From Primorskyibacter aestuariivivens (GTDB lineage Bacteria > Pseudomonadota > Alphaproteobacteria > Rhodobacterales > Rhodobacteraceae), in contig NZ_JAQIOZ010000003.1 in the NCBI RefSeq assembly GCF_028023675.1, forward strand, positions 1 through 64,000: 64,000 nucleotides of DNA. Direction: 5' to 3'. Position numbers and translations under genes: made by a program. Below the pieces are notes generated by a model, which was not told the DNA's origin, searched no databases, and saw only the letters and a program-made list of their open reading frames with translations. Numbering within the stretch: position 1 is the first letter of the stretch; every line of letters begins with the position of its first letter. This document shows positions 21,297 to 47,889 of the stretch, piece by piece.

Positions 21297-21320
21297 TTTC
21301 GGCTACTCCTTTGAAATCTT

Positions 21321-21381
21321 TCGTAGGGTGGGCATTTCTGCCCACCGTCGCGCATTGGTGGGCAAATTGCCCACCCTACGA
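21321..21381. repeat. GTAGGGTGGGCA palindromic repeat pair (sucC-sucD gap)
   Basis: Two palindromic units (GGTGGGCA...TGCCCACC at 21327-21346 and GGTGGGCAA...TTGCCCACC at 21357-21375) are placed head to head, so the ends TCGTAGGGTGGGCA and TGCCCACCCTACGA also form a larger inverted repeat. Single units of the same family occur at 60015 and 62829, and a GTAGGGTGCGCA variant at 28979. Confidence 0.75.
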
Positions 21382-22575
21382 TCAGCCCTTAACCGCTTTC
21401 ACGATCTTCTGGGCGCCATCCTTGAGGTCATCGGCGGCGATCACGTCAACGTCGGAGTTGTTGATGATCTCTTTGCCTTTTTCCACGTTGGTGCCTTCAA
21501 GACGCACAACCAGCGGAACCTGCAGGCCCACCTCTTTCACCGCGGCGATCACGCCCTCGGCGATGACGTCACAGCGCATGATGCCGCCAAAGATGTTGAC
21601 CAGGATGCCTTTGACGTTGGGGTCAGAGGTGATGATCTTGAACGCTTCGGTCACCTTCTCCTTGGTCGCGCCGCCGCCTACGTCGAGGAAGTTGGCAGGC
21701 TCGGCACCGTAGAGCTTGATGATGTCCATGGTCGCCATGGCAAGGCCCGCGCCGTTCACCATACAGCCGATCTCACCGTCCAGAGCGATGTAGTTCAGGT
21801 CGTACTTGGACGCCTCAAGCTCTTTGGGGTCTTCTTCGGTGGTGTCGCGCAGTTCGGCAATATCCGGGTGGCGGTAAACCGCGTTGCCGTCAAAGCCGAC
21901 CTTGGCGTCGAGAACCTTGAGCGACCCGGCATCGGTGATGATCAGCGGGTTGATCTCAAGCATCTCCATGTCTTTTTCGATGAAGGCTTGGTAGAGCAGA
22001 CCCATCAGCGCCACGCATTCCTTGACCTGCTTGCCTTCAAGGCCCAGCGAGAACGCGATGCGGCGACCGTGGAAGGGCTGGTAGCCCGTGGCCGGATCAA
22101 CCGAGAAGGACAGGATCTTTTCAGGAGTGGCTGCGGCCACCTCTTCAATGTCCATGCCGCCTTCGGTCGAGCAGACAAAGGAAACGCGGCTGGTCTGGCG
22201 GTCCACCAGAAGCGCGAGATAGAGTTCGCGCTCAATGCCCGAACCGTCTTCGATATAGATGCGGTTGACCTGTTTGCCCGCCGGGCCGGTCTGGTGGGTC
22301 ACAAGGGTGCGGCCCAGCATCTTCTTGGCTTCCTCAGCCGCTTCTTCCACCGACTTGGCGAGGCGCACGCCACCGGCTTCACCGGCACTGGCTTCCTTGA
22401 AGGAGCCTTTGCCGCGACCACCCGCGTGGATCTGAGCCTTGACCACCCACAGGGGGCCGTCCATTTCACCGGCTTTGGTTTTGGCTTCTTCCGCTTTCAG
22501 AACGACGCGTCCATCCGATACCGGTGCGCCGTAGCTGCGAAGCAGAGCCTTCGCCTGATACTCATGAATGTTCAT
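21382..22575 (-). CDS. sucC: Succinyl-CoA synthetase subunit beta
   Basis: A 397-residue ATP-grasp subunit that binds nucleotide and CoA and works with SucD in the TCA cycle. The start is [20 protein letters not shown] as in the family; the ATP-grasp Lys/Arg region [14 protein letters not shown] and the Mg-binding [12 protein letters not shown] are clear, and the C-terminal CoA-ligase part includes [14 protein letters not shown]. First gene of the sucCD-odhAB operon. About 110-145 bp upstream of its start are two 21-bp-spaced TGTGATCACA palindromes, the likely operator. Confidence 0.97.
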
Positions 22576-22683
22576 GGATCATCTGTCCCGTCTTGCTACA
22601 ATTGCCACAGCCTTAAGGGATTAAAGTACAGCATCTAAACGCCATTTTGACGCAGCACGGTTGTTAGCGTGCAAAAAGCGACA

Positions 22684-22718
22684 TTTGTGATCACACGTTT
22701 AAATCGTGTGATCACAAA
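22684..22718. promoter_or_regulatory. Paired TGTGATCACA palindromes upstream of sucC (candidate TCA operator)
   Basis: TTTGTGATCACACG (22684-22697) and its exact reverse complement CGTGTGATCACAAA (22705-22718) flank TTTAAAT. Each arm holds the 10-bp self-palindrome TGTGATCACA (22686-22695 and 22707-22716), with starts exactly 21 bp apart, two helical turns. It lies between the divergent sucC and glycosyltransferase genes. The same arrangement recurs upstream of sdhC. TNTGATNA-type palindromes are typical of GntR regulators; AkgR is the known GntR-family activator of TCA genes in R. sphaeroides, but this binding is inferred. Confidence 0.75.
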
Positions 22719-22795
22719 AATACGCGCTAATGCGCCTTGGCAGAGAATCAGCCGACGATTACGGTTGCCGCGAGCCTTTCGCAAAAGGAGTTTTC

Positions 22796-23809
22796 ATGTC
22801 CGCCACCTGGGGCATCGTGATGACGGTGCGTGAACCAGCGCAACTGGTTCTGGCCAATGTGGCCTGGCACCTTGGGACCGGTGCGTCGGAAATCCATGTC
22901 TATCTTGATGACCCTCGTGACCCGATTAAGCCGCAACTCGATGCGCTTGGGCCGGTGCGTGTGACATGTTGCGATGCCGCGCATTGGCGCGACGCTGCGC
23001 AATCCCAACAGCGCCCCGCGTCGATCAATCGCCGACAGGGGCGCAATGCTGTCCACGCTATGGTGCGCGCGAACACCGATTGGTTGATCCATCTGGACGC
23101 CGATGAGTTTCTGTTTCAGGAGCGACCGCTCGCCAATGAACTGGCCGTCGCGCGCGAACTGGACTGCGAGGTCCATTTCCCGGTGCACGAGCGCTTCTTT
23201 TGCCGCGATGTACCGGTGCATTCCATCTTTGACGGGCTGTTTCGCACCACCACCAAAGGGTTGAACCGCCGCACCGACGGGCGCAGCAATGATGCGGTCA
23301 TTTTCGGCGCGCACCTGCCTGTGCTCAATAACGGGGTGCTGGCCCATTCCGCAGGAAAATGCGCCGCCCCCACCGACAGCGATTTCCGTCTCGGGCTGCA
23401 CTGGTCCTACCGGGGAAAGGGGCGCGACCGGGCGCAACGCTACCGCTCGACCTCGACCCGGTTGCTGCATTTCGACGGGCTGACTCGGCTGCACTGGCTG
23501 GGCAAGCTCATGCGCTACCGCGACACGCCTGCGGAAGACCTGAAATTTCCGCCGCACAGGCTGGCTCAGATCGGGATTTTTCAGGACATCGCTGATGATC
23601 CCGAAGCCTTGGCCGAATTTCACCGGGAGTTTCGTGAGCTCGAGCCGGACGCAATCGAGCGGCTGCGTGACTTCGGTCTGCTCTATGAAACGCCGTTCGA
23701 TCCCGTGCCGATGCTCCGGGAGGTCCTTGGCGATGTGCCGGATCTGAGCTCTGAAAGCTTTGATCGCGACGTGCGGCGCGCAAATCCTGGCCTTTTGAAC
23801 GGCCTCTGA
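22796..23809 (+). CDS. Glycosyltransferase family 2-like protein
   Basis: A 337-residue protein of the GT2/GT-A-like group without membrane segments. It begins MSATWGIVMTVREPAQLVLA, and the acidic motif WLIHLDADEFLF (residues near 99-110) corresponds to the DXD metal/nucleotide-sugar site; the C-terminal half is Arg-rich. Acceptor and sugar are unknown, probably a surface polysaccharide. AAAAGGAG at 22783-22790 supports the ATG at 22796. It is divergent from sucC and shares the intergenic region with the paired TGTGATCACA sites, and it ends in a bidirectional terminator facing mdh. Confidence 0.78.
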   Translation: MSATWGIVMTVREPAQLVLANVAWHLGTGASEIHVYLDDPRDPIKPQLDALGPVRVTCCDAAHWRDAAQSQQRPASINRRQGRNAVHAMVRANTDWLIHLDADEFLFQERPLANELAVARELDCEVHFPVHERFFCRDVPVHSIFDGLFRTTTKGLNRRTDGRSNDAVIFGAHLPVLNNGVLAHSAGKCAAPTDSDFRLGLHWSYRGKGRDRAQRYRSTSTRLLHFDGLTRLHWLGKLMRYRDTPAEDLKFPPHRLAQIGIFQDIADDPEALAEFHREFRELEPDAIERLRDFGLLYETPFDPVPMLREVLGDVPDLSSESFDRDVRRANPGLLNGL

Positions 23810-23816
23810 AACGAAA

Positions 23817-23842
23817 AAGGGCGCCCCGGTCGGAGCGCCCTT
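23817..23842. terminator. Bidirectional terminator between the glycosyltransferase gene and mdh
   Basis: AAGGGCGC (23817-23824) pairs with GCGCCCTT (23835-23842), with A-rich DNA on the left and TATTAATT on the right. It separates two convergent genes. Confidence 0.75.
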
Positions 23843-23862
23843 ATTAATTCTGGCGGGATCGC

Positions 23863-24969
<1,107 letters not shown>

Positions 24970-24982
24970 TTAAAGGGTCACC

Positions 24983-25738
24983 ATGTTGGAATTCACCCCC
25001 GGATTTTTCGCCATTGCAGTGCCTGCAGTGATCTTTGCCGGGATTTCCAAGGCCGGTTTCGGGTCCGGCGCGGCCTTTGCCAGCGCGTCGATTCTGGCGA
25101 TCGTGCTGCCGCCGGGCATCGCGCTGGGCATCATGCTGCCGCTTCTGATGCTGGTCGACGTGGCCTCGCTCCGCCCCTATTGGCGGCGATGGTCCTGGCC
25201 CGAGGCGCGGGTCTTACTGACCGGTGCCGTTCCGGGTGTGGCGCTGGGCGCCTTGTTCTACCGCTGGGCCGATGACGATGCGATCCGGCTGTTGATCGGC
25301 GCGGTATCACTTGGGTTTGTTGCCTGGCAGCTCTCGGTCAAACGCGGTTGGGTCCGGCTTGGTGCGCGTCCCTTGCCATTGTCCGGGGGGTATCCGGCCG
25401 GGATCGTGGCCGGGTTCACCAGCTTTGTCAGCCACGCGGGCGGCCCGCCATCAGCGGTCTTTCTGCTCGGTCGCAGGCTGGACAAAACCACCTATCAGGC
25501 AACGACCGTTCTGGTTTTCTGGGCAATCAATATCGCGAAATTCCTGCCCTACAGCTTCATGGGCATTTTCACGGCGCAGACCCTGCTTGCCGATCTGTTT
25601 CTGGCCCCCGCCGCGCTCATTGGTGCATGGTTGGGTGTGCGCGCGCATTTCCTGATTTCGGAACGGGCGTTCTTTGCGCTGACTTACACGCTCCTGACCT
25701 GCACCGGAGCCAAGCTGATCTGGGACGCGCTAGTCTAG
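24983..25738 (+). CDS. Sulfite exporter TauE/SafE family protein
   Basis: A 251-residue inner-membrane protein with seven to eight predicted hydrophobic segments, the TauE/SafE (DUF81) layout of two homologous halves. Conserved Gly/Pro-rich pieces are FAGISKAGFGSG near residue 18 and GFTSFVSHAGGPPSAVFLL near 138. Members export sulfite, sulfoacetate or other organic anions; the substrate here is unknown. The last 4 bases overlap the end of the convergent secreted-protein gene, so no terminator separates them. Confidence 0.88.
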   Translation: MLEFTPGFFAIAVPAVIFAGISKAGFGSGAAFASASILAIVLPPGIALGIMLPLLMLVDVASLRPYWRRWSWPEARVLLTGAVPGVALGALFYRWADDDAIRLLIGAVSLGFVAWQLSVKRGWVRLGARPLPLSGGYPAGIVAGFTSFVSHAGGPPSAVFLLGRRLDKTTYQATTVLVFWAINIAKFLPYSFMGIFTAQTLLADLFLAPAALIGAWLGVRAHFLISERAFFALTYTLLTCTGAKLIWDALV

Positions 25739-26052
25739 GCGTCCTTGTCATTGGCGGGCAAAGCCTCGGCCAGGGTTTCAAACGCCTGACCACTGGCCAT
25801 CAGGCAGGTGACCCCGTCGGGCATGGTTGCTGTGATGGTCCAACTTCCGGTCTCACGACTGGCGAAAACCTCGACCACCACGTTGTTGCCACCAAGCCCG
25901 ATGGATTGACGGGTTTCGCCATAGCTTTGGGCCAGACGGTCAAGCATGACATCGCGTGTTGCGCAATGATTGCGGCCCTGTGCCGGGAGCTGGGTTGCAG
26001 CAAGGATAAGCGTCGACGCCGCCATGGCCAGTGTGAAATCATTCAGTTTCAT
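25735..26052 (-). CDS. Hypothetical secreted protein (105 aa)
   Basis: Not assigned to a named family. The ATG at 26052 opens with a signal peptide (MKLNDFTLAMAASTLILAAT, cleavage likely after LPAQG). The mature part has two cysteines (C30 and C82) that could form a disulfide, and a beta-rich pattern (NNVVVEVFASRETGSWTITA). It is probably periplasmic. It converges on the TauE-like gene with a 4-bp overlap; a 268-bp region upstream leads to mcl2. Confidence 0.65.
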   Translation of the reverse strand: MKLNDFTLAMAASTLILAATQLPAQGRNHCATRDVMLDRLAQSYGETRQSIGLGGNNVVVEVFASRETGSWTITATMPDGVTCLMASGQAFETLAEALPANDKDA

Positions 26053-26320
26053 CTCGTCACCTTTTGGTTCCCTTGCCAGGTGGCGCGGCTTTGCCGACCT
26101 GTGGCAAGCTGTTATCGCATGGGCCGGACCCGTCCCGCCATTCTGGCAAAAGGGCATGCGGCCATGGGGAAAAGCCTGCCGCAAAATGGTTAAATCCCGG
26201 CTTAATCCACCGGGCGGTGCGATTTGACGATAAATTTGCTGCACTGCGGCACCTCACCCCTTGAACAATTCGGCAAAAAATGCCCCTTATGCGCGCAACA
26301 TTGTTTCAAGGAGACTCGTC

Positions 26321-27178
26321 ATGGACATGCGCGCCCGCCCTTATCGTTCGGTTCTTTATATTCCCGGCTCCAAGCCCCGCGCATTGGACAAGGCCCGGAC
26401 CCTGCCGATTGATGCCATCATCTTTGACCTCGAAGACGCCGTCTCGATCGAGGAAAAGGTGAACGCGCGCGACACGCTCACCGCTGCTCTGGCCGAGGGC
26501 GGTTATGGCGCGCGCATGAAGATCGTGCGCATCAACTCGCTCGATACCGAATGGGGCCGCGCCGATGCAGAGGCGGTCACCAAGATGGACTGCGACGCGG
26601 TTCTCCTGCCCAAGGTGGGCTCTGCCGCGGATATTGATGCGCTGGCCGAGATCACCGGCGATCTGCCGATCTGGGCGATGATGGAGACGCCCGCGGGTAT
26701 GCTGCATGCCGAGGAGATTGCCGCGCATCCCAAACTGGCGGGCTTTGTCATGGGCACCAATGACCTCGCCAAGGAACTGCAATGCCGCTTCCGTGCCGAC
26801 CGTTTGCCGATGCTGACCGCGCTGTCGCTCTGCCTGCTCGCGGCCAAAGCCCATGGGGTTGTCATCGTGGACGGCGTCTATAACGCGTTCAAGGATGACG
26901 AGGGCCTGCGCGCCGAATGTGAGCAGGGCCGTGACATGGGTATGGACGGCAAGACGCTGATCCACCCCGCGCAGGTGGCCATCGCCAACGAAGCCTTTGC
27001 CCCGTCTGAGGCCGAGATCGAGCTGGCCCAGCGCCAGATCGCCGCCTTTGAAGAGGCCGAGGCCGGCGGGCAGGGGGTTGCCGTGGTCGATGGCAAGATC
27101 GTCGAAAACCTGCACGTTGCCACGGCACGTGAAATACTGGCAAAAGCGGAGGCAATCAAAGCCATCGCAGCGGAGTAA
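26321..27178 (+). CDS. mcl2: CoA-ester lyase/thioesterase, Mcl2-type (3S)-malyl-CoA thioesterase
   Basis: A 285-residue HpcH/HpaI-CitE-like TIM-barrel protein. Features are YRSVLYIPGSKPRALDKA, the metal-binding IIFDLEDAV, VLLPKVGSAADI, MMETPAGML and GKTLIHPAQ. Length and context (two genes before mch) match Mcl2 of R. sphaeroides, which hydrolyses (3S)-malyl-CoA to malate and CoA in the ethylmalonyl-CoA pathway; malyl-CoA lyase Mcl1 is a longer, different paralog. ATG 26321 has AAGGAGA just upstream, so the longer frame from TTG 26261 is rejected. A citrate-lyase-beta-like activity cannot be excluded by sequence alone. Confidence 0.85.
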   Translation: MDMRARPYRSVLYIPGSKPRALDKARTLPIDAIIFDLEDAVSIEEKVNARDTLTAALAEGGYGARMKIVRINSLDTEWGRADAEAVTKMDCDAVLLPKVGSAADIDALAEITGDLPIWAMMETPAGMLHAEEIAAHPKLAGFVMGTNDLAKELQCRFRADRLPMLTALSLCLLAAKAHGVVIVDGVYNAFKDDEGLRAECEQGRDMGMDGKTLIHPAQVAIANEAFAPSEAEIELAQRQIAAFEEAEAGGQGVAVVDGKIVENLHVATAREILAKAEAIKAIAAE

Positions 27179-27183
27179 ACCCC

Positions 27184-27732
27184 ATGACCCTTCTTGTCCT
27201 CGGCGTCGCCCTTTGGGCACTTGCGCATTATTTCAAACGTCTCATGCCAGAACGGCGTGCGGCGATGGGCGACGCGGGCAAGGGGGCGGTCGCTGCAGCG
27301 ATTGCCGTTTCGGTGGTCCTGATGATCTTTGGCTACCGCATGGCACCGTTCATCGACCTTTGGTACCCGCCCAGTTTCATGTTGCATATCAACAACCTGT
27401 TGGTGTTGATTGCGCTTTACATGATGAGCCCCGCGCCCAAGAAAGGCCGGTTGCTGGCCGGTATGCGCCATCCGATGCTGATCGGATTCAAGCTTTGGGC
27501 CGTGGCGCATTTGCTGGTGAATGGCGATCTGGCGTCAATCATCCTGTTTGGCGGGCTGTTGGCATGGGCAGTTTCAGAGATCATTATCATCAACCGCGCT
27601 GAACCCGACTGGACCCCGCGCACGCCCGGCCCAATTGCCAAGGACGCGATGTTCTTTGTCGCGTCCATCGTGCTGCTTGCCATCATTGGCTGGATTCACG
27701 GCTACCTCGGCCCTTGGCCCTTCCCCGGATAA
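27184..27732 (+). CDS. NnrU family membrane protein
   Basis: A 182-residue polytopic protein with five to six hydrophobic segments. The conserved NnrU pieces are WALAHYFKRLMPERR at the N-terminus and MRHPMLIGFKLWAVAHLLVNGD in the middle, where His residues on helix faces recall a haem- or quinone-related membrane protein. NnrU was named from a nitric oxide respiration locus, but related NnrU-domain proteins occur widely without denitrification; no denitrification gene is nearby. It follows mcl2 by 5 bp and precedes the DUF1737 gene by 4 bp, so it sits inside the mcl2-mch operon. Confidence 0.87.
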   Translation: MTLLVLGVALWALAHYFKRLMPERRAAMGDAGKGAVAAAIAVSVVLMIFGYRMAPFIDLWYPPSFMLHINNLLVLIALYMMSPAPKKGRLLAGMRHPMLIGFKLWAVAHLLVNGDLASIILFGGLLAWAVSEIIIINRAEPDWTPRTPGPIAKDAMFFVASIVLLAIIGWIHGYLGPWPFPG

Positions 27733-27736
27733 GCTC

Positions 27737-27940
27737 ATGAAACTCTATCGTTTTCTGTCGGCCGACGACACGTCGGAATTTTGCCACAAGGTCACCGCCG
27801 CGCTCAACAAGGGTTGGGCGCTGCATGGCTCGCCGACCTACGCCTTTGATGCCGCCAATGGTGTCATGCGCTGCGGACAGGCCGTGACCAAAGACGTGGA
27901 TGGCGACTACACCCCCGATCTCAAACTTGGAGACCAGTAA
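27737..27940 (+). CDS. DUF1737 domain protein
   Basis: A 67-residue protein (MKLYRFLSADDTSEFCHKVT...) of the DUF1737 type, with the characteristic ALNKGWALHGSPTYAFD core. These are small cytosolic proteins of unknown function, often beside mch in Rhodobacteraceae. Its stop overlaps the mch start (TAATG), implying coupled translation. Confidence 0.8.
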   Translation: MKLYRFLSADDTSEFCHKVTAALNKGWALHGSPTYAFDAANGVMRCGQAVTKDVDGDYTPDLKLGDQ

Positions 27941-28971
27941 TGGCCAAAACCAATCCCGGCCGTTTCTTCGAGGACTACCGCCTTGGAGAAACCATCCAGC
28001 ACGCCGTGCCGCGCACCGTTTCCGGTGGCGAGCGTGCGCTGTATCACGCGCTTTATCCCGCGCGCCACGCGCTTTATTCCTCCGATGAATTCGCGCGAGC
28101 GTCCGGCCTGCCTGCCGCGCCTATCGACGATCTGGCTGCGTTCCACGTGGTCTTTGGCAAGACGGTGCCCGACATCTCGCTCAACGCCGTGGCGAACCTT
28201 GGCTATGCAGAAGGCAACTGGCGTCTGCCGGTCTATCCCGGGGATACGCTGCGCTCGGAGTCGGAAGTCATTGGCCTGAAACAGAACTCCAACGGCAAAT
28301 CCGGCGTTGTCTATGTCCGCACCCGCGGTCTGAACCAGCGTGACGAGGTGGTGATGGACTACGTGCGCTGGGTCATGGTGCGCAAATCCAACCTTGATGC
28401 GCCCGCACCCGAGACGGTGATACCCGAACTGCAAAAGGTCATCCCGGCCTCTGATCTGGTGATCCCTGAGGGGCTGGATTTCTCCGACTACGACTTCACG
28501 CTCGCCGGAGAGCCGCATCGCTGGGGCGACTACGCCGTGGGCGAAACCATCGACCATGTGGATGGTGTGACGATTGAAGAGGCCGAGCATATGCTCGCCA
28601 CCCGGCTCTGGCAGAACACCGCCAAGGTGCATTTCGACGTCACCTTCCGCCCCGATGGTCAGCGGTTGATCTATGGCGGTCACATCATCTCCATGGCCCG
28701 CGCGCTCAGCTTTAACGGGCTGGCCAATGCGCAGATGATCGTGGGGCTGAACGGCGGCGCGCATGCCAACCCGTGCTATTCCGGTCTGACCGTCAAAGCG
28801 TGGTCGGAAGTGCTGGACAAGGCGGAAACCTCTGCCCCCGGCGTTGGTGCGATCCGACTGCGTCTTGTGGCGACCAGCGGCGGTGACGCGTTCACGCTCA
28901 AGGGCGAGGACGGCAAATACCTGCCCCATGTGCTGCTGGATCTGGATTACTGGGCGCTGATGCCGGTGTGA
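27940..28971 (+). CDS. mch: Mesaconyl-CoA hydratase
   Basis: A 343-residue double-MaoC-domain enzyme that hydrates mesaconyl-(C1)-CoA to beta-methylmalyl-CoA in the ethylmalonyl-CoA pathway. The N-terminal GRFFEDYRLGETIQHAVPRT and the second hot-dog domain around residues 180-320 (RWGDYAVGETIDHVDGVTIE) fit the family; length equals that of R. sphaeroides Mch. It is the last gene of mcl2-nnrU-DUF1737-mch and lies directly upstream of the sdh promoter region. Confidence 0.93.
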   Translation: MAKTNPGRFFEDYRLGETIQHAVPRTVSGGERALYHALYPARHALYSSDEFARASGLPAAPIDDLAAFHVVFGKTVPDISLNAVANLGYAEGNWRLPVYPGDTLRSESEVIGLKQNSNGKSGVVYVRTRGLNQRDEVVMDYVRWVMVRKSNLDAPAPETVIPELQKVIPASDLVIPEGLDFSDYDFTLAGEPHRWGDYAVGETIDHVDGVTIEEAEHMLATRLWQNTAKVHFDVTFRPDGQRLIYGGHIISMARALSFNGLANAQMIVGLNGGAHANPCYSGLTVKAWSEVLDKAETSAPGVGAIRLRLVATSGGDAFTLKGEDGKYLPHVLLDLDYWALMPV

Positions 28972-28978
28972 TGGGGGC

Positions 28979-29036
28979 GGTGCGCAAAGACCGCGCACCC
29001 TAAGCCCGCCAGTAGGGTGCGCAATCGTTGCGCACC
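28979..29036. repeat. GTAGGGTGCGCA palindromic repeat pair
   Basis: GGTGCGC...GCGCACC (28979-28999) and GTAGGGTGCGCAA...TTGCGCACC (29013-29036) form two head-to-head units, the first ending in CCTA and the second starting TAGGG. It is a variant of the GTAGGGTGGGCA family seen at 21321, 60015 and 62829, and sits just after the mch stop. Confidence 0.65.
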
Positions 29037-29046
29037 TTCCCTAAAA

Positions 29047-29060
29047 TTTGTGATCACAAA
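29047..29060. promoter_or_regulatory. Single TTTGTGATCACAAA palindrome, distal sdh site
   Basis: A perfect 14-bp palindrome with the same TGTGATCACA core as the sucC sites. It is centred 111 bp upstream of the left member of the paired site at 29157, a distance compatible with looping between bound regulators. Confidence 0.65.
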
Positions 29061-29156
29061 CGGCCTCTACGTGACCGCTAACGGTTTTCTTGGGCTTTCT
29101 TCGCTGTTGTCTCAGTGATTCCCGAAATGCCACTTCGATGTGCGAGCCAATTGAGG

Positions 29157-29193
29157 TTTTGTGATCACTGCCTCCGATTAAGTGATCACAAAT
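29157..29193. promoter_or_regulatory. Paired GTGATCAC palindromes upstream of sdhC (candidate TCA operator)
   Basis: TTTGTGATCACT (29158-29169) and its exact reverse complement AGTGATCACAAA (29181-29192) flank an 11-nt spacer. The two palindromic cores (29160-29169 and 29181-29190) start exactly 21 bp apart, as at sucC, although the spacer sequence is unrelated. It ends about 115 bp before the sdhC start. The likely ligand is a GntR-type TCA regulator (inference). Confidence 0.75.
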
Positions 29194-29305
29194 CCCTGAA
29201 ATTATCCCGGTTGCGCCAAAAAACCGCGCCCATGCGGCGCTGCGGCGCGTGACAGACACGTAAAAATCACTATCACGGGAGCCAAGCGAACCGAAAGGAA
29301 CAGCC

Positions 29306-29689
29306 ATGGCTGATGTGAATCGCGGCAACCGGCCGCTCTCTCCGCACTTGCAGATCTACCGTCCCCAACTGAACTCCATCACCTCGATCCTGACCCGGAT
29401 CACCGGCAACGCGCTCTTGCTTGGCTGCCTGCTGATCGTGTGGTGGTTCCTGGCGGCGGCCACCTCGCCGGAATATTTCGCCTTTGCGGATTGGCTGCTG
29501 ACCAGCTTTATCGGTGACCTGATCATGCTCGGCTCGCTCTGGGCGCTGTGGTATCACTTGCTCGCCGGTGTCCGCCACCTGATCTGGGACAATGCGATTG
29601 GTCTCGATCTTGCCAGCGCGGACAAGCTGAGCTGGGCCGTGATCGGTGGCTCGCTGTTCCTCACCCTGTTCACCGTTGCCATCGTCTGA
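29306..29689 (+). CDS. sdhC: Succinate dehydrogenase cytochrome b556 subunit
   Basis: A 127-residue membrane anchor with three helices (about 28-50, 62-85 and 105-127). The SdhC signatures RPLSPHLQIYRPQLNSITSI and HLLAGVRHLIWD are present, the latter containing the haem-ligand His region. It helps bind haem b and ubiquinone in complex II. AAAGGAAC precedes the ATG. First gene of the sdh operon, downstream of the paired palindromes. Confidence 0.96.
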   Translation: MADVNRGNRPLSPHLQIYRPQLNSITSILTRITGNALLLGCLLIVWWFLAAATSPEYFAFADWLLTSFIGDLIMLGSLWALWYHLLAGVRHLIWDNAIGLDLASADKLSWAVIGGSLFLTLFTVAIV

Positions 29690-29699
29690 GGAGGCCATC

Positions 29700-30071
29700 A
29701 TGCGTTATCTGACTGACCGCAAACGCGCCACCGGCATGGGCTCTGCCAAGACCGGCACCGCGCATTTCTGGGCGATGAAAGTGTCCTCCGTGGCGCTTCT
29801 GGTGCTCATCCCGCTGTTCATCTTCAATTTCGGCCCGATGCTGGGCCAGCCGCATGACGTGGTGCTGGAGCATTTCGGCCGCCCCTATCCGGCGATCCTT
29901 GCGGCGCTGACCATTGTCGTGACCTTCATGCACTTCAAGGACGGTGTGCAGGTCCTGATCGAGGACTATGTGCACGGGCTGATGGGGAAAATCCTGATCA
30001 TCGCGATGATCTGTCTGTCTTACGCCGCGATGGTGACTGGCTTGTTTGCCATCGCCAAGATCGCGCTTTGA
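29700..30071 (+). CDS. sdhD: Succinate dehydrogenase hydrophobic membrane anchor subunit
   Basis: A 123-residue protein with three hydrophobic segments (about 27-47, 60-80 and 97-120). [20 protein letters not shown] and [16 protein letters not shown] match SdhD, with a histidine in the haem-ligand region. The ATG at 29700 has GAGGAGG directly upstream. It lies between sdhC and sdhA. Confidence 0.95.
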
Positions 30072-46297: not shown

Positions 46298-46513
46298 ATG
46301 CAACACGACTGGATACTGGACGTACTGGCAGACCTCAAAAGCTTTGCAATGACCAATGGATTGCCAGCCCTCGCCGAGCAGCTGGAGGACAGTCGCATGG
46401 TCGCCATGGCCGAGGTCGCCTCCAAGGAAGAAGGGACAGGGGTTGGGCTTCGCGGCACGGACGCCTCAACTGGAGGAAATACTTTCGCAGCTGGAGCAAT
46501 CCGACGCGCTTGA
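46298..46513 (+). CDS. Small protein (71 aa) upstream of luxR
   Basis: A 71-residue protein beginning MQHDWILDVLADLKSFAMTN. The N-terminal half forms a plausible amphipathic helical bundle (ILDVLADLKSFA, LPALAEQLEDSRMVAMAEV); the tail is Gly/Thr-rich. Its composition looks like a real protein. I have the impression that similar short frames precede luxR genes in Rhodobacteraceae, which I cannot verify. No known domain. Its last 71 bp overlap the LuxR start. Confidence 0.6.
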   Translation: MQHDWILDVLADLKSFAMTNGLPALAEQLEDSRMVAMAEVASKEEGTGVGLRGTDASTGGNTFAAGAIRRA

Positions 46514-47171
46514 AGAATTGCAGGATGTGATCGAGAAGCTGCGTGACTGCTTCGGTGTCGATCACATGGTCTATCACTGGGTCAGCAGCACGGGGGAGCA
46601 GTACGGCTGCGGCACCTATTCTCCGGAATGGGTGCAGCGCTACCTTGATCAGGGATATCTGCGGATTGATCCGGTTGTTCTGGGATGTTTTCAACGGTTC
46701 CACCCGGTGGACTGGAAGCGGTTGGACTGGTCGTCGCGCGCGGCACGTGCCTTTCAGAAAGAGGCGCTGGACTACGGCGTCGGAAATCAGGGCTTGTCGA
46801 TCCCGATCCGGGGACCGAACGGTCAATTCGCACTTTATACACTCAGCCACAATTGCAGTGATCGCGAATGGGCCGAATTTACCGAACGCCACCGTCGCGA
46901 ACTGATCCTCGTGGCGCATTACTTCAATCAAAAGGCGCTGGAGTTCGAACCGGGCCGCGTGCCCGAACAAGGCCAGGCGCTGTCGCCGCGCGAAGTCGAG
47001 GCAATGACTTTGATTGCAGTGGGTTACAACCGGGCGCAGGCGGCAGAAAGCCTGTCGATCTCGGAGCATACATTGCGCGTCTATATCGAAAGCGCGCGGT
47101 TCAAACTTGGCGCGATGAACACCACGCACGCGGTTGCAAAGGCGCTGAGCCGGGGCCTGATCGTGGTGTAG
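46443..47171 (+). CDS. luxR: LuxR-family quorum-sensing regulator
   Basis: A 242-residue regulator with an N-terminal autoinducer-binding domain (about 10-160, with conserved-looking WVSSTGEQYGCGTYSPEWVQ) and a C-terminal LuxR HTH domain (about 178-242: LSPREVEAMTLIAVGYNRAQ and then SISEHTLRVYIESARFKLGA). Expected to bind an acyl-homoserine lactone and activate target promoters, including luxI. The start is a TTG at 46443 because upstream in-frame codons overlap the 71-aa gene; it is the weakest part of the call. An 85-bp gap separates it from luxI. Confidence 0.9.
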   Translation: MGFAARTPQLEEILSQLEQSDALEELQDVIEKLRDCFGVDHMVYHWVSSTGEQYGCGTYSPEWVQRYLDQGYLRIDPVVLGCFQRFHPVDWKRLDWSSRAARAFQKEALDYGVGNQGLSIPIRGPNGQFALYTLSHNCSDREWAEFTERHRRELILVAHYFNQKALEFEPGRVPEQGQALSPREVEAMTLIAVGYNRAQAAESLSISEHTLRVYIESARFKLGAMNTTHAVAKALSRGLIVV

Positions 47172-47256
47172 TCCTTATCGGCCCGCGCGCGTCTCTCGCC
47201 CGGCATTAACCGGAATTGATCACGCTGTTTCCCGTAAATCACGGGGAGACAGCCAC

Positions 47257-47889
47257 ATGATCCGATACCTCTACGCCGACCAGCTTGCCCAGGAACCCGG
47301 TCTTGCCCACGCCATGTTCCGCGACCGGGCCGATCAGTTCCACACGCGCCTTGGGTGGGAGGTGCAGGTGGACGAAAACGGCGAGGAACGCGACGCATAT
47401 GATGGCCTGAGCCCGCTCTACGTGATCTGGCAGAATGCCGATGGCGGCCATGGCGGTTCCATGCGGTTTCTGCCCACCGTGGGCCGCACCATGGTCAATG
47501 ATCATTTCTCGCACCTGACCGATGGTGTCCTGATCCAAAGCCCCGTGATCTGGGAATGCACGCGCTTCTGCCTGTCGCGCGGGGCCTCGGCAAAGGTCTC
47601 GGCGGCGCTTATGCTGGCGGGGGGCGAGATCATGCAGAATTTCGGCGTCCGGCATTTCGTTGGCGTGTTCGATGCCCGCATGGTGCGCATCTATCGTCGC
47701 ATTGGTGCCTCGCCCGAGGTGCTGGGCAGCGATGGCGCGGGGCGGGCCAAAATCAGCGTGGGCCTGTGGGCGTTTACGCCCGAGGCTCAGGCACGCGTGG
47801 CCGAAGCCGCGGGCATTTCCGCCGCGCAGTCACGCCAATGGTTCAACCAGTCTTTCGATAGCGCAAATCAGCTTGCCGCAAGCGCCTGA
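47257..47889 (+). CDS. luxI: Acyl-homoserine-lactone synthase (LuxI family)
   Basis: A 210-residue autoinducer synthase that joins S-adenosylmethionine and acyl-ACP. The conserved N-terminal catalytic Arg is in MFRDRADQFHTRLGWEVQ, followed by acidic DAYDGLSPLY and GSMRFLPT, and the later WECTRFCLSR includes Glu and Arg of the active site. Acyl chain length cannot be read. It lies directly downstream of luxR and upstream of a helicase gene. Confidence 0.94.
   Translation: MIRYLYADQLAQEPGLAHAMFRDRADQFHTRLGWEVQVDENGEERDAYDGLSPLYVIWQNADGGHGGSMRFLPTVGRTMVNDHFSHLTDGVLIQSPVIWECTRFCLSRGASAKVSAALMLAGGEIMQNFGVRHFVGVFDARMVRIYRRIGASPEVLGSDGAGRAKISVGLWAFTPEAQARVAEAAGISAAQSRQWFNQSFDSANQLAASA

Follow-up and report, generated by a model that had tools for sequence, protein, structure and literature searches.

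What is the role of two short palindromes that stand at a set distance from one another upstream of sdhC, and which protein do they bind? The locus was analysed within a window of 64,000 nucleotides of Primorskyibacter aestuariivivens DNA. The initial annotation had described two inverted 12-mers upstream of sdhC, with their cores 21 bp apart in the same layout as at sucC, and had suggested a GntR regulator as their partner. The description turned out to be correct for both promoters: the sdhC cores start at 29161 and 29182, and the sucC cores at 22687 and 22708 have the same 21-bp spacing (Table 1). The interval given previously, 29157-29193, takes in one extra base on each side of the pair, which spans 29158-29192, and the sdhC start codon (29306) is located about 115 bp downstream of the proximal site. 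No known RNA family was found in 22500-29800 at the Rfam gathering thresholds. Hairpin-like GGGTG...CACCC sequences are present between sucD and sucC (21320-21390) and following a gene that ends at 28971 (28985-29040), and they resemble repeated intergenic elements.

Table 1. Positions of the sdhC and sucC promoter features and of the candidate regulator gene (window coordinates unless preceded by C6)
Feature	Position	Strand	Details
Third, perfectly symmetric site TTTGTGATCACAAA	29047-29060		111 bp upstream of the pair
Distal AkgR-type site TTTGTGATCACT	29158-29169		Core GTGATCAC at 29161-29168; core nearly unchanged among the 93 sdhC promoters aligned at a spacing of 21 bp
Spacer GCCTCCGATTA, 11 nt	29170-29180		Length conserved, sequence not
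Proximal AkgR-type site AGTGATCACAAA	29181-29192		Core at 29182-29189, spaced 21 bp from that of the distal site
A/T tract AAATTAT	29199-29205	+	Just downstream of the pair
A/T tract AAAAAA	29218-29223	+	About two helical turns past the first tract
Putative -35, GTGACA	29249-29254	+	89 bp from the pair start; position conserved in relatives
Putative -10, TATCAC	29271-29276	+	Spacing 16; identical hexamers in congener G100
sdhC, first gene of the target operon sdhCDAB	29306-29689	+	Pfam Sdh_cyt; sdhA and sdhB downstream
Second pair of AkgR-type sites, before sucC	22685-22717		Cores at 22687 and 22708
sucC, at the start of the second target operon, suc	21382-22575	-	Translation; sucD downstream by NCBIfam
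GntR-FCD regulator gene, AkgR orthologue candidate	C6:93886-94530		GntR and FCD domains

The 64-kb window holds six exact copies of the core palindrome GTGATCAC, from which, by our own estimate, chance would yield about 0.0006 pairs spaced exactly 21 bp apart. In a pattern search of the 4.29-Mb genome, the method behind all genome-wide statistics given here, the exact arrangement GTGATCAC-N13-GTGATCAC was found at the sdhC and sucC pairs only.

Conservation was analysed in 150 genomes of Rhodobacteraceae, nearly all of them from different genera. The pattern TGTGATCAC-N13-GTGATCACA, with no more than one mismatch, was present in 125 of the 150, mostly in two copies each, and its reversed version gave no matches in the same genomes. 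The reversed pattern contains CTAG, which is expected to be a rare word, making this a lenient control, and we relied instead on a scan with free spacing and on gene-anchored counts. When the spacer was allowed to vary from 1 to 31, 134 of the 150 genomes gave a match; among the 75 pairs listed, the spacing was 21 bp in 64, 20 bp in 4 and some other value in 7. For the gene-anchored set, sdhC was located by protein search in 120 genomes, and the DNA upstream of it was taken from these and from the window. In the genomes that encode the GntR-FCD regulator described below, the best pair at sdhC had a spacing of 21 bp in 89 cases, with 10 more at 20 bp and a single one at 19 bp. A strict rule, which allowed no more than three mismatches and a spacing of either 20 or 21 bp, held at sdhC for 99 of the 107 regulator-bearing genomes, and 8 fell outside it. 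At sucC all 93 pairs fit (86 at 21 bp and 7 at 20 bp). The two spacings coexist, even inside one genome, and as both occur, the rule is best stated as two helical turns.

The initial annotation had named a spacing that is not conserved in relatives as the observation that would count against its claim of functional selection. The spacing is conserved at both promoters, and the claim survives. In the aligned promoters the cores are almost invariant and the outer TTT/AAA flanks of the sites are well kept, whereas the spacer is degenerate. The spacer had also been called unconserved, and this needs some qualification: the sdhC and sucC spacers are indeed unrelated and diverge in relatives, but towards the middle they are biased to A/T, most strongly at sucC. 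Two similar copies only 6.5 kb apart in the window might suggest a mobile or copied repeat, or chance. However, their spacers and flanking DNA are unrelated and diverge in relatives while the cores stay almost invariant, which argues for selection rather than copying, and the pairs occupy the same positions before the same two genes in about a hundred genera. Together with the empty reversed-pattern control, this leaves a repeat or chance with virtually no probability; such an origin is refuted by the conservation found. Kept at 20-21 bp across some hundred related genera, the pair is a genuine regulatory switch, and one of a known kind. Outside the family the pair was found in 5 of about 380 alphaproteobacterial genomes, and in none of the three of these that were inspected did it stand before sdh or suc.

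The window contains no GntR gene. At 46356-47889 of the window a LuxR-type regulator gene adjoins an autoinducer synthase gene. The candidate for the regulator of the pair is encoded elsewhere in the genome (Table 1). Its product contains both a GntR winged helix and an FCD domain, which places it in the FadR-type (FCD) subfamily of the GntR family, and among solved structures McbR (PDB 4p9f) is the closest to it in sequence. A perfect copy of the palindrome, TTGTGATCACAA, is located at C6:93867, just ahead of this gene (locus L006: site 1501-1512, ATG 1520). Orthologues of the regulator scored at least 199 bits and paralogues below 178 bits, so that the two groups are clearly separated. The regulator is absent from 16 of the 150 genomes. 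Any pair is missing in 13 of these 16, as against 3 of the 134 regulator-bearing genomes (Fisher p=1.6e-13). The three genomes that retain pairs without a detected orthologue (G019, G097 and G115) are all fragmented assemblies, and G097 is 77% complete.

We take RSP_0981 of Rhodobacter (Cereibacter) sphaeroides to be AkgR, a name reportedly given to it by Imam and co-workers in mBio in 2015. RSP_0981, a GntR protein, was predicted to control sucCD, sdh and sucAB in R. sphaeroides (Imam et al., PMC4344238, PLoS Comput Biol e1004103), and AkgR, an activator of TCA-cycle genes, has binding sites that contain GTGATCAC (Price et al. 2019, PMC6365646). The regulator encoded at C6 is very probably the orthologue of this protein. 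The link to RSP_0981 was drawn through a Cereibacter-like genome (G051), in which the orthologue is located about 4.7 kb from sdhC, matching the placement of RSP_0981 relative to RSP_0974-0976, and is 96% identical to a record from Cereibacter ovatus, its nearest named match. The present genome has the components of an AkgR regulon: an operator with GTGATCAC, sdh and suc as targets, and an encoded orthologue. It shares with R. sphaeroides an orthologous GntR regulator that is reported to be an activator there, the targets sdh, sucCD and sucAB, and the core motif. In contrast to R. sphaeroides, however, this is a roseobacter-type genome, in which the regulator gene is next to ygjP and accA and not beside sdh.

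The half-site TGTGA is similar to that of Crp, and a Crp/Fnr-type protein (TGTGA...TCACA) could in principle bind the palindromes, with the GntR link being coincidental. However, the halves of Crp sites are six bases apart, whereas here no bases separate them. Both the co-occurrence of pair and regulator and the site at the GntR gene favour a GntR protein, and the core itself has been published for AkgR (PMC6365646). We find the Crp/Fnr explanation very improbable. The same three lines of evidence support the GntR guess of the initial annotation, although the gene itself lies outside the window.

The regulator, the core motif and the targets were thus already known. For the two-turn pair and the promoter layout we found no description in the literature, the original AkgR paper lying outside that comparison. 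With the same proviso on that paper, what is added here is the fixed two-turn pair, the phased A/T tracts, the fixed -35, an optional third site and a branch-specific site at the regulator gene.

The DNA between the pair and the -35 element is itself patterned. In both promoters A/T-rich columns recur at about 40, 51, 61 and 71 bp, counted from where the pair starts, with a period of 9.5-10.5 bp, and such phasing was reached by none of 500 shifted controls. Columns 39-42 of the alignment are A/T in 76-94% of sequences at sdhC and in 89-99% at sucC. The A/T profiles of the two promoters are in register, with r=0.66 at lag 0 and a negative value when shifted by half a turn. No A/T phasing was found in 12 genomes that have neither regulator nor pair, where the position of the -35 is uncertain, and the tracts could be conserved partly by descent. 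The -35 elements were called by consensus and the transcription starts inferred from them. On this basis, the best -35 is located at 88 or 89 bp from the pair in 58 of 93 sdhC promoters, typically as GTGACA followed after 16 bp by a TA-rich -10. At sucC it is found at 77 or 78 bp in 36 of 87 promoters, a less sharp distribution than that of sdhC. The two distances differ by 11 bp, or one helical turn.

These observations are best accommodated if the pair is a double operator of the AkgR orthologue, with dimers on the same face of the DNA activating sdhCDAB and sucCD(AB) in a class I-like manner through the alpha-CTD, and we regard this as highly probable. Each GTGATCAC palindrome would take one AkgR dimer. 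The two dimers would then share one face of the DNA, separated by two helical turns and some 90-120 bp ahead of the inferred start of transcription, and would hold the alpha-CTDs of RNA polymerase in the phased A/T minor grooves that lead towards the -35. As a result, sdhCDAB and sucCD(AB) would rise together. As in class I promoters, an activator site stands in a fixed helical register upstream of the -35, the latter being consensus-based. The likeness to Crp class I promoters thus consists of an upstream activator in helical register with the -35 and A/T grooves for the alpha-CTD in between. Here, however, the protein belongs to an unrelated family, the palindrome is unspaced, and the sites are paired and lie about 100 bp upstream. 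Whether the whole family follows one grammar at sdhC and sucC, with a pair of AkgR dimers at 20-21 bp, A/T grooves about every 10 bp and a -35 shifted by one turn between the promoters, is close to an even question, to which we lean slightly towards no.

The initial annotation did not include the third site upstream of the pair, nor the perfect copy at the regulator gene. An extra upstream site is present in 18 of about 100 relatives, and in 13 of the 18 its distance from the pair is 56-57 or 97-117 bp, which hints at a constraint from helical phase or looping. The pair might therefore be an AkgR operator that acts by bending or looping the DNA, with the third site as a partner and the A-tracts as curved DNA, and not by direct contact with the alpha-CTD; A/T tracts every 10 bp or so also give curvature. 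However, most genomes are without a third site, and yet the pair and the tracts persist in them. Furthermore, the tracts are near the grooves that the alpha-CTD usually occupies relative to the transcription start (about -42 to -84 of the inferred start). Action by bending or looping appears rather unlikely to us.

Most FCD-type GntR proteins are repressors, and AkgR or another regulator could hold sdh and suc expression low until a signal is received. The site at the start of the regulator's own gene fits repression there. The sdhC pair, however, is a long way upstream of the inferred -35, where a simple repressor would be badly placed, and AkgR was described as an activator (PMC6365646). We consider repression of the two operons quite unlikely. 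To return to activation by AkgR, its own gene would be under a different kind of control. Of the 30 nearest orthologues, 29 have the palindrome no more than 65 bp upstream of the regulator start, and it is mostly absent in the Cereibacter/Gemmobacter/Tabrizicola branch, another difference from the R. sphaeroides system. In the roseobacter-type branch, to which this genome belongs, AkgR bound at its own start codon would probably limit its own synthesis.

Related regulators offer two points of comparison. One alphaproteobacterium from outside the Rhodobacteraceae carries a different GntR-FCD gene (30% identical) next to a TonB receptor gene. This gene, too, has a 21-bp pair at its start (L306 991-1021), and paired sites may be usual throughout this GntR branch. 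PS417_07240, the AkgR-like regulator of the deoxyribose cluster of Pseudomonas simiae, is 32% identical and has GTGATCAC upstream of its own gene (PMC6365646); there, in contrast to the present case, one palindrome was described and the pathway is another.

Single AkgR-type sites are found at other genes. Two are located about 400 and 520 bp upstream of the acetyl-CoA synthetase gene acs in this genome (L330 979-988 and 1103-1112, with acs from about 1501), and two congeners have similar ones. As 29 other acs loci have no site in a comparable upstream position, acs was rejected as a family-wide AkgR target and is at most a target at the level of the genus. The remaining single sites of this genome (C3:326487, C10, C12 and C30) may be due to chance. 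In one relative (G005) a perfect AkgR-type site is present upstream of atpH/atpA of the F1 ATPase (L315 1502).

The Rhodobacteraceae are a dominant marine group. In most of them, one regulator would couple succinate dehydrogenase with the succinyl-CoA/2-oxoglutarate dehydrogenase operon by means of one rigid promoter layout. The branches of the family differ in their wiring, as marked by the site ahead of the regulator gene. Such rigid spacing lends itself to simple predictions, in the form of 5-bp versus 10-bp shifts, about how a GntR protein can activate from some 100 bp upstream. If the family-wide grammar is true, it would represent long-range class I-like activation by paired dimers of GntR proteins, a family known mostly for repression.
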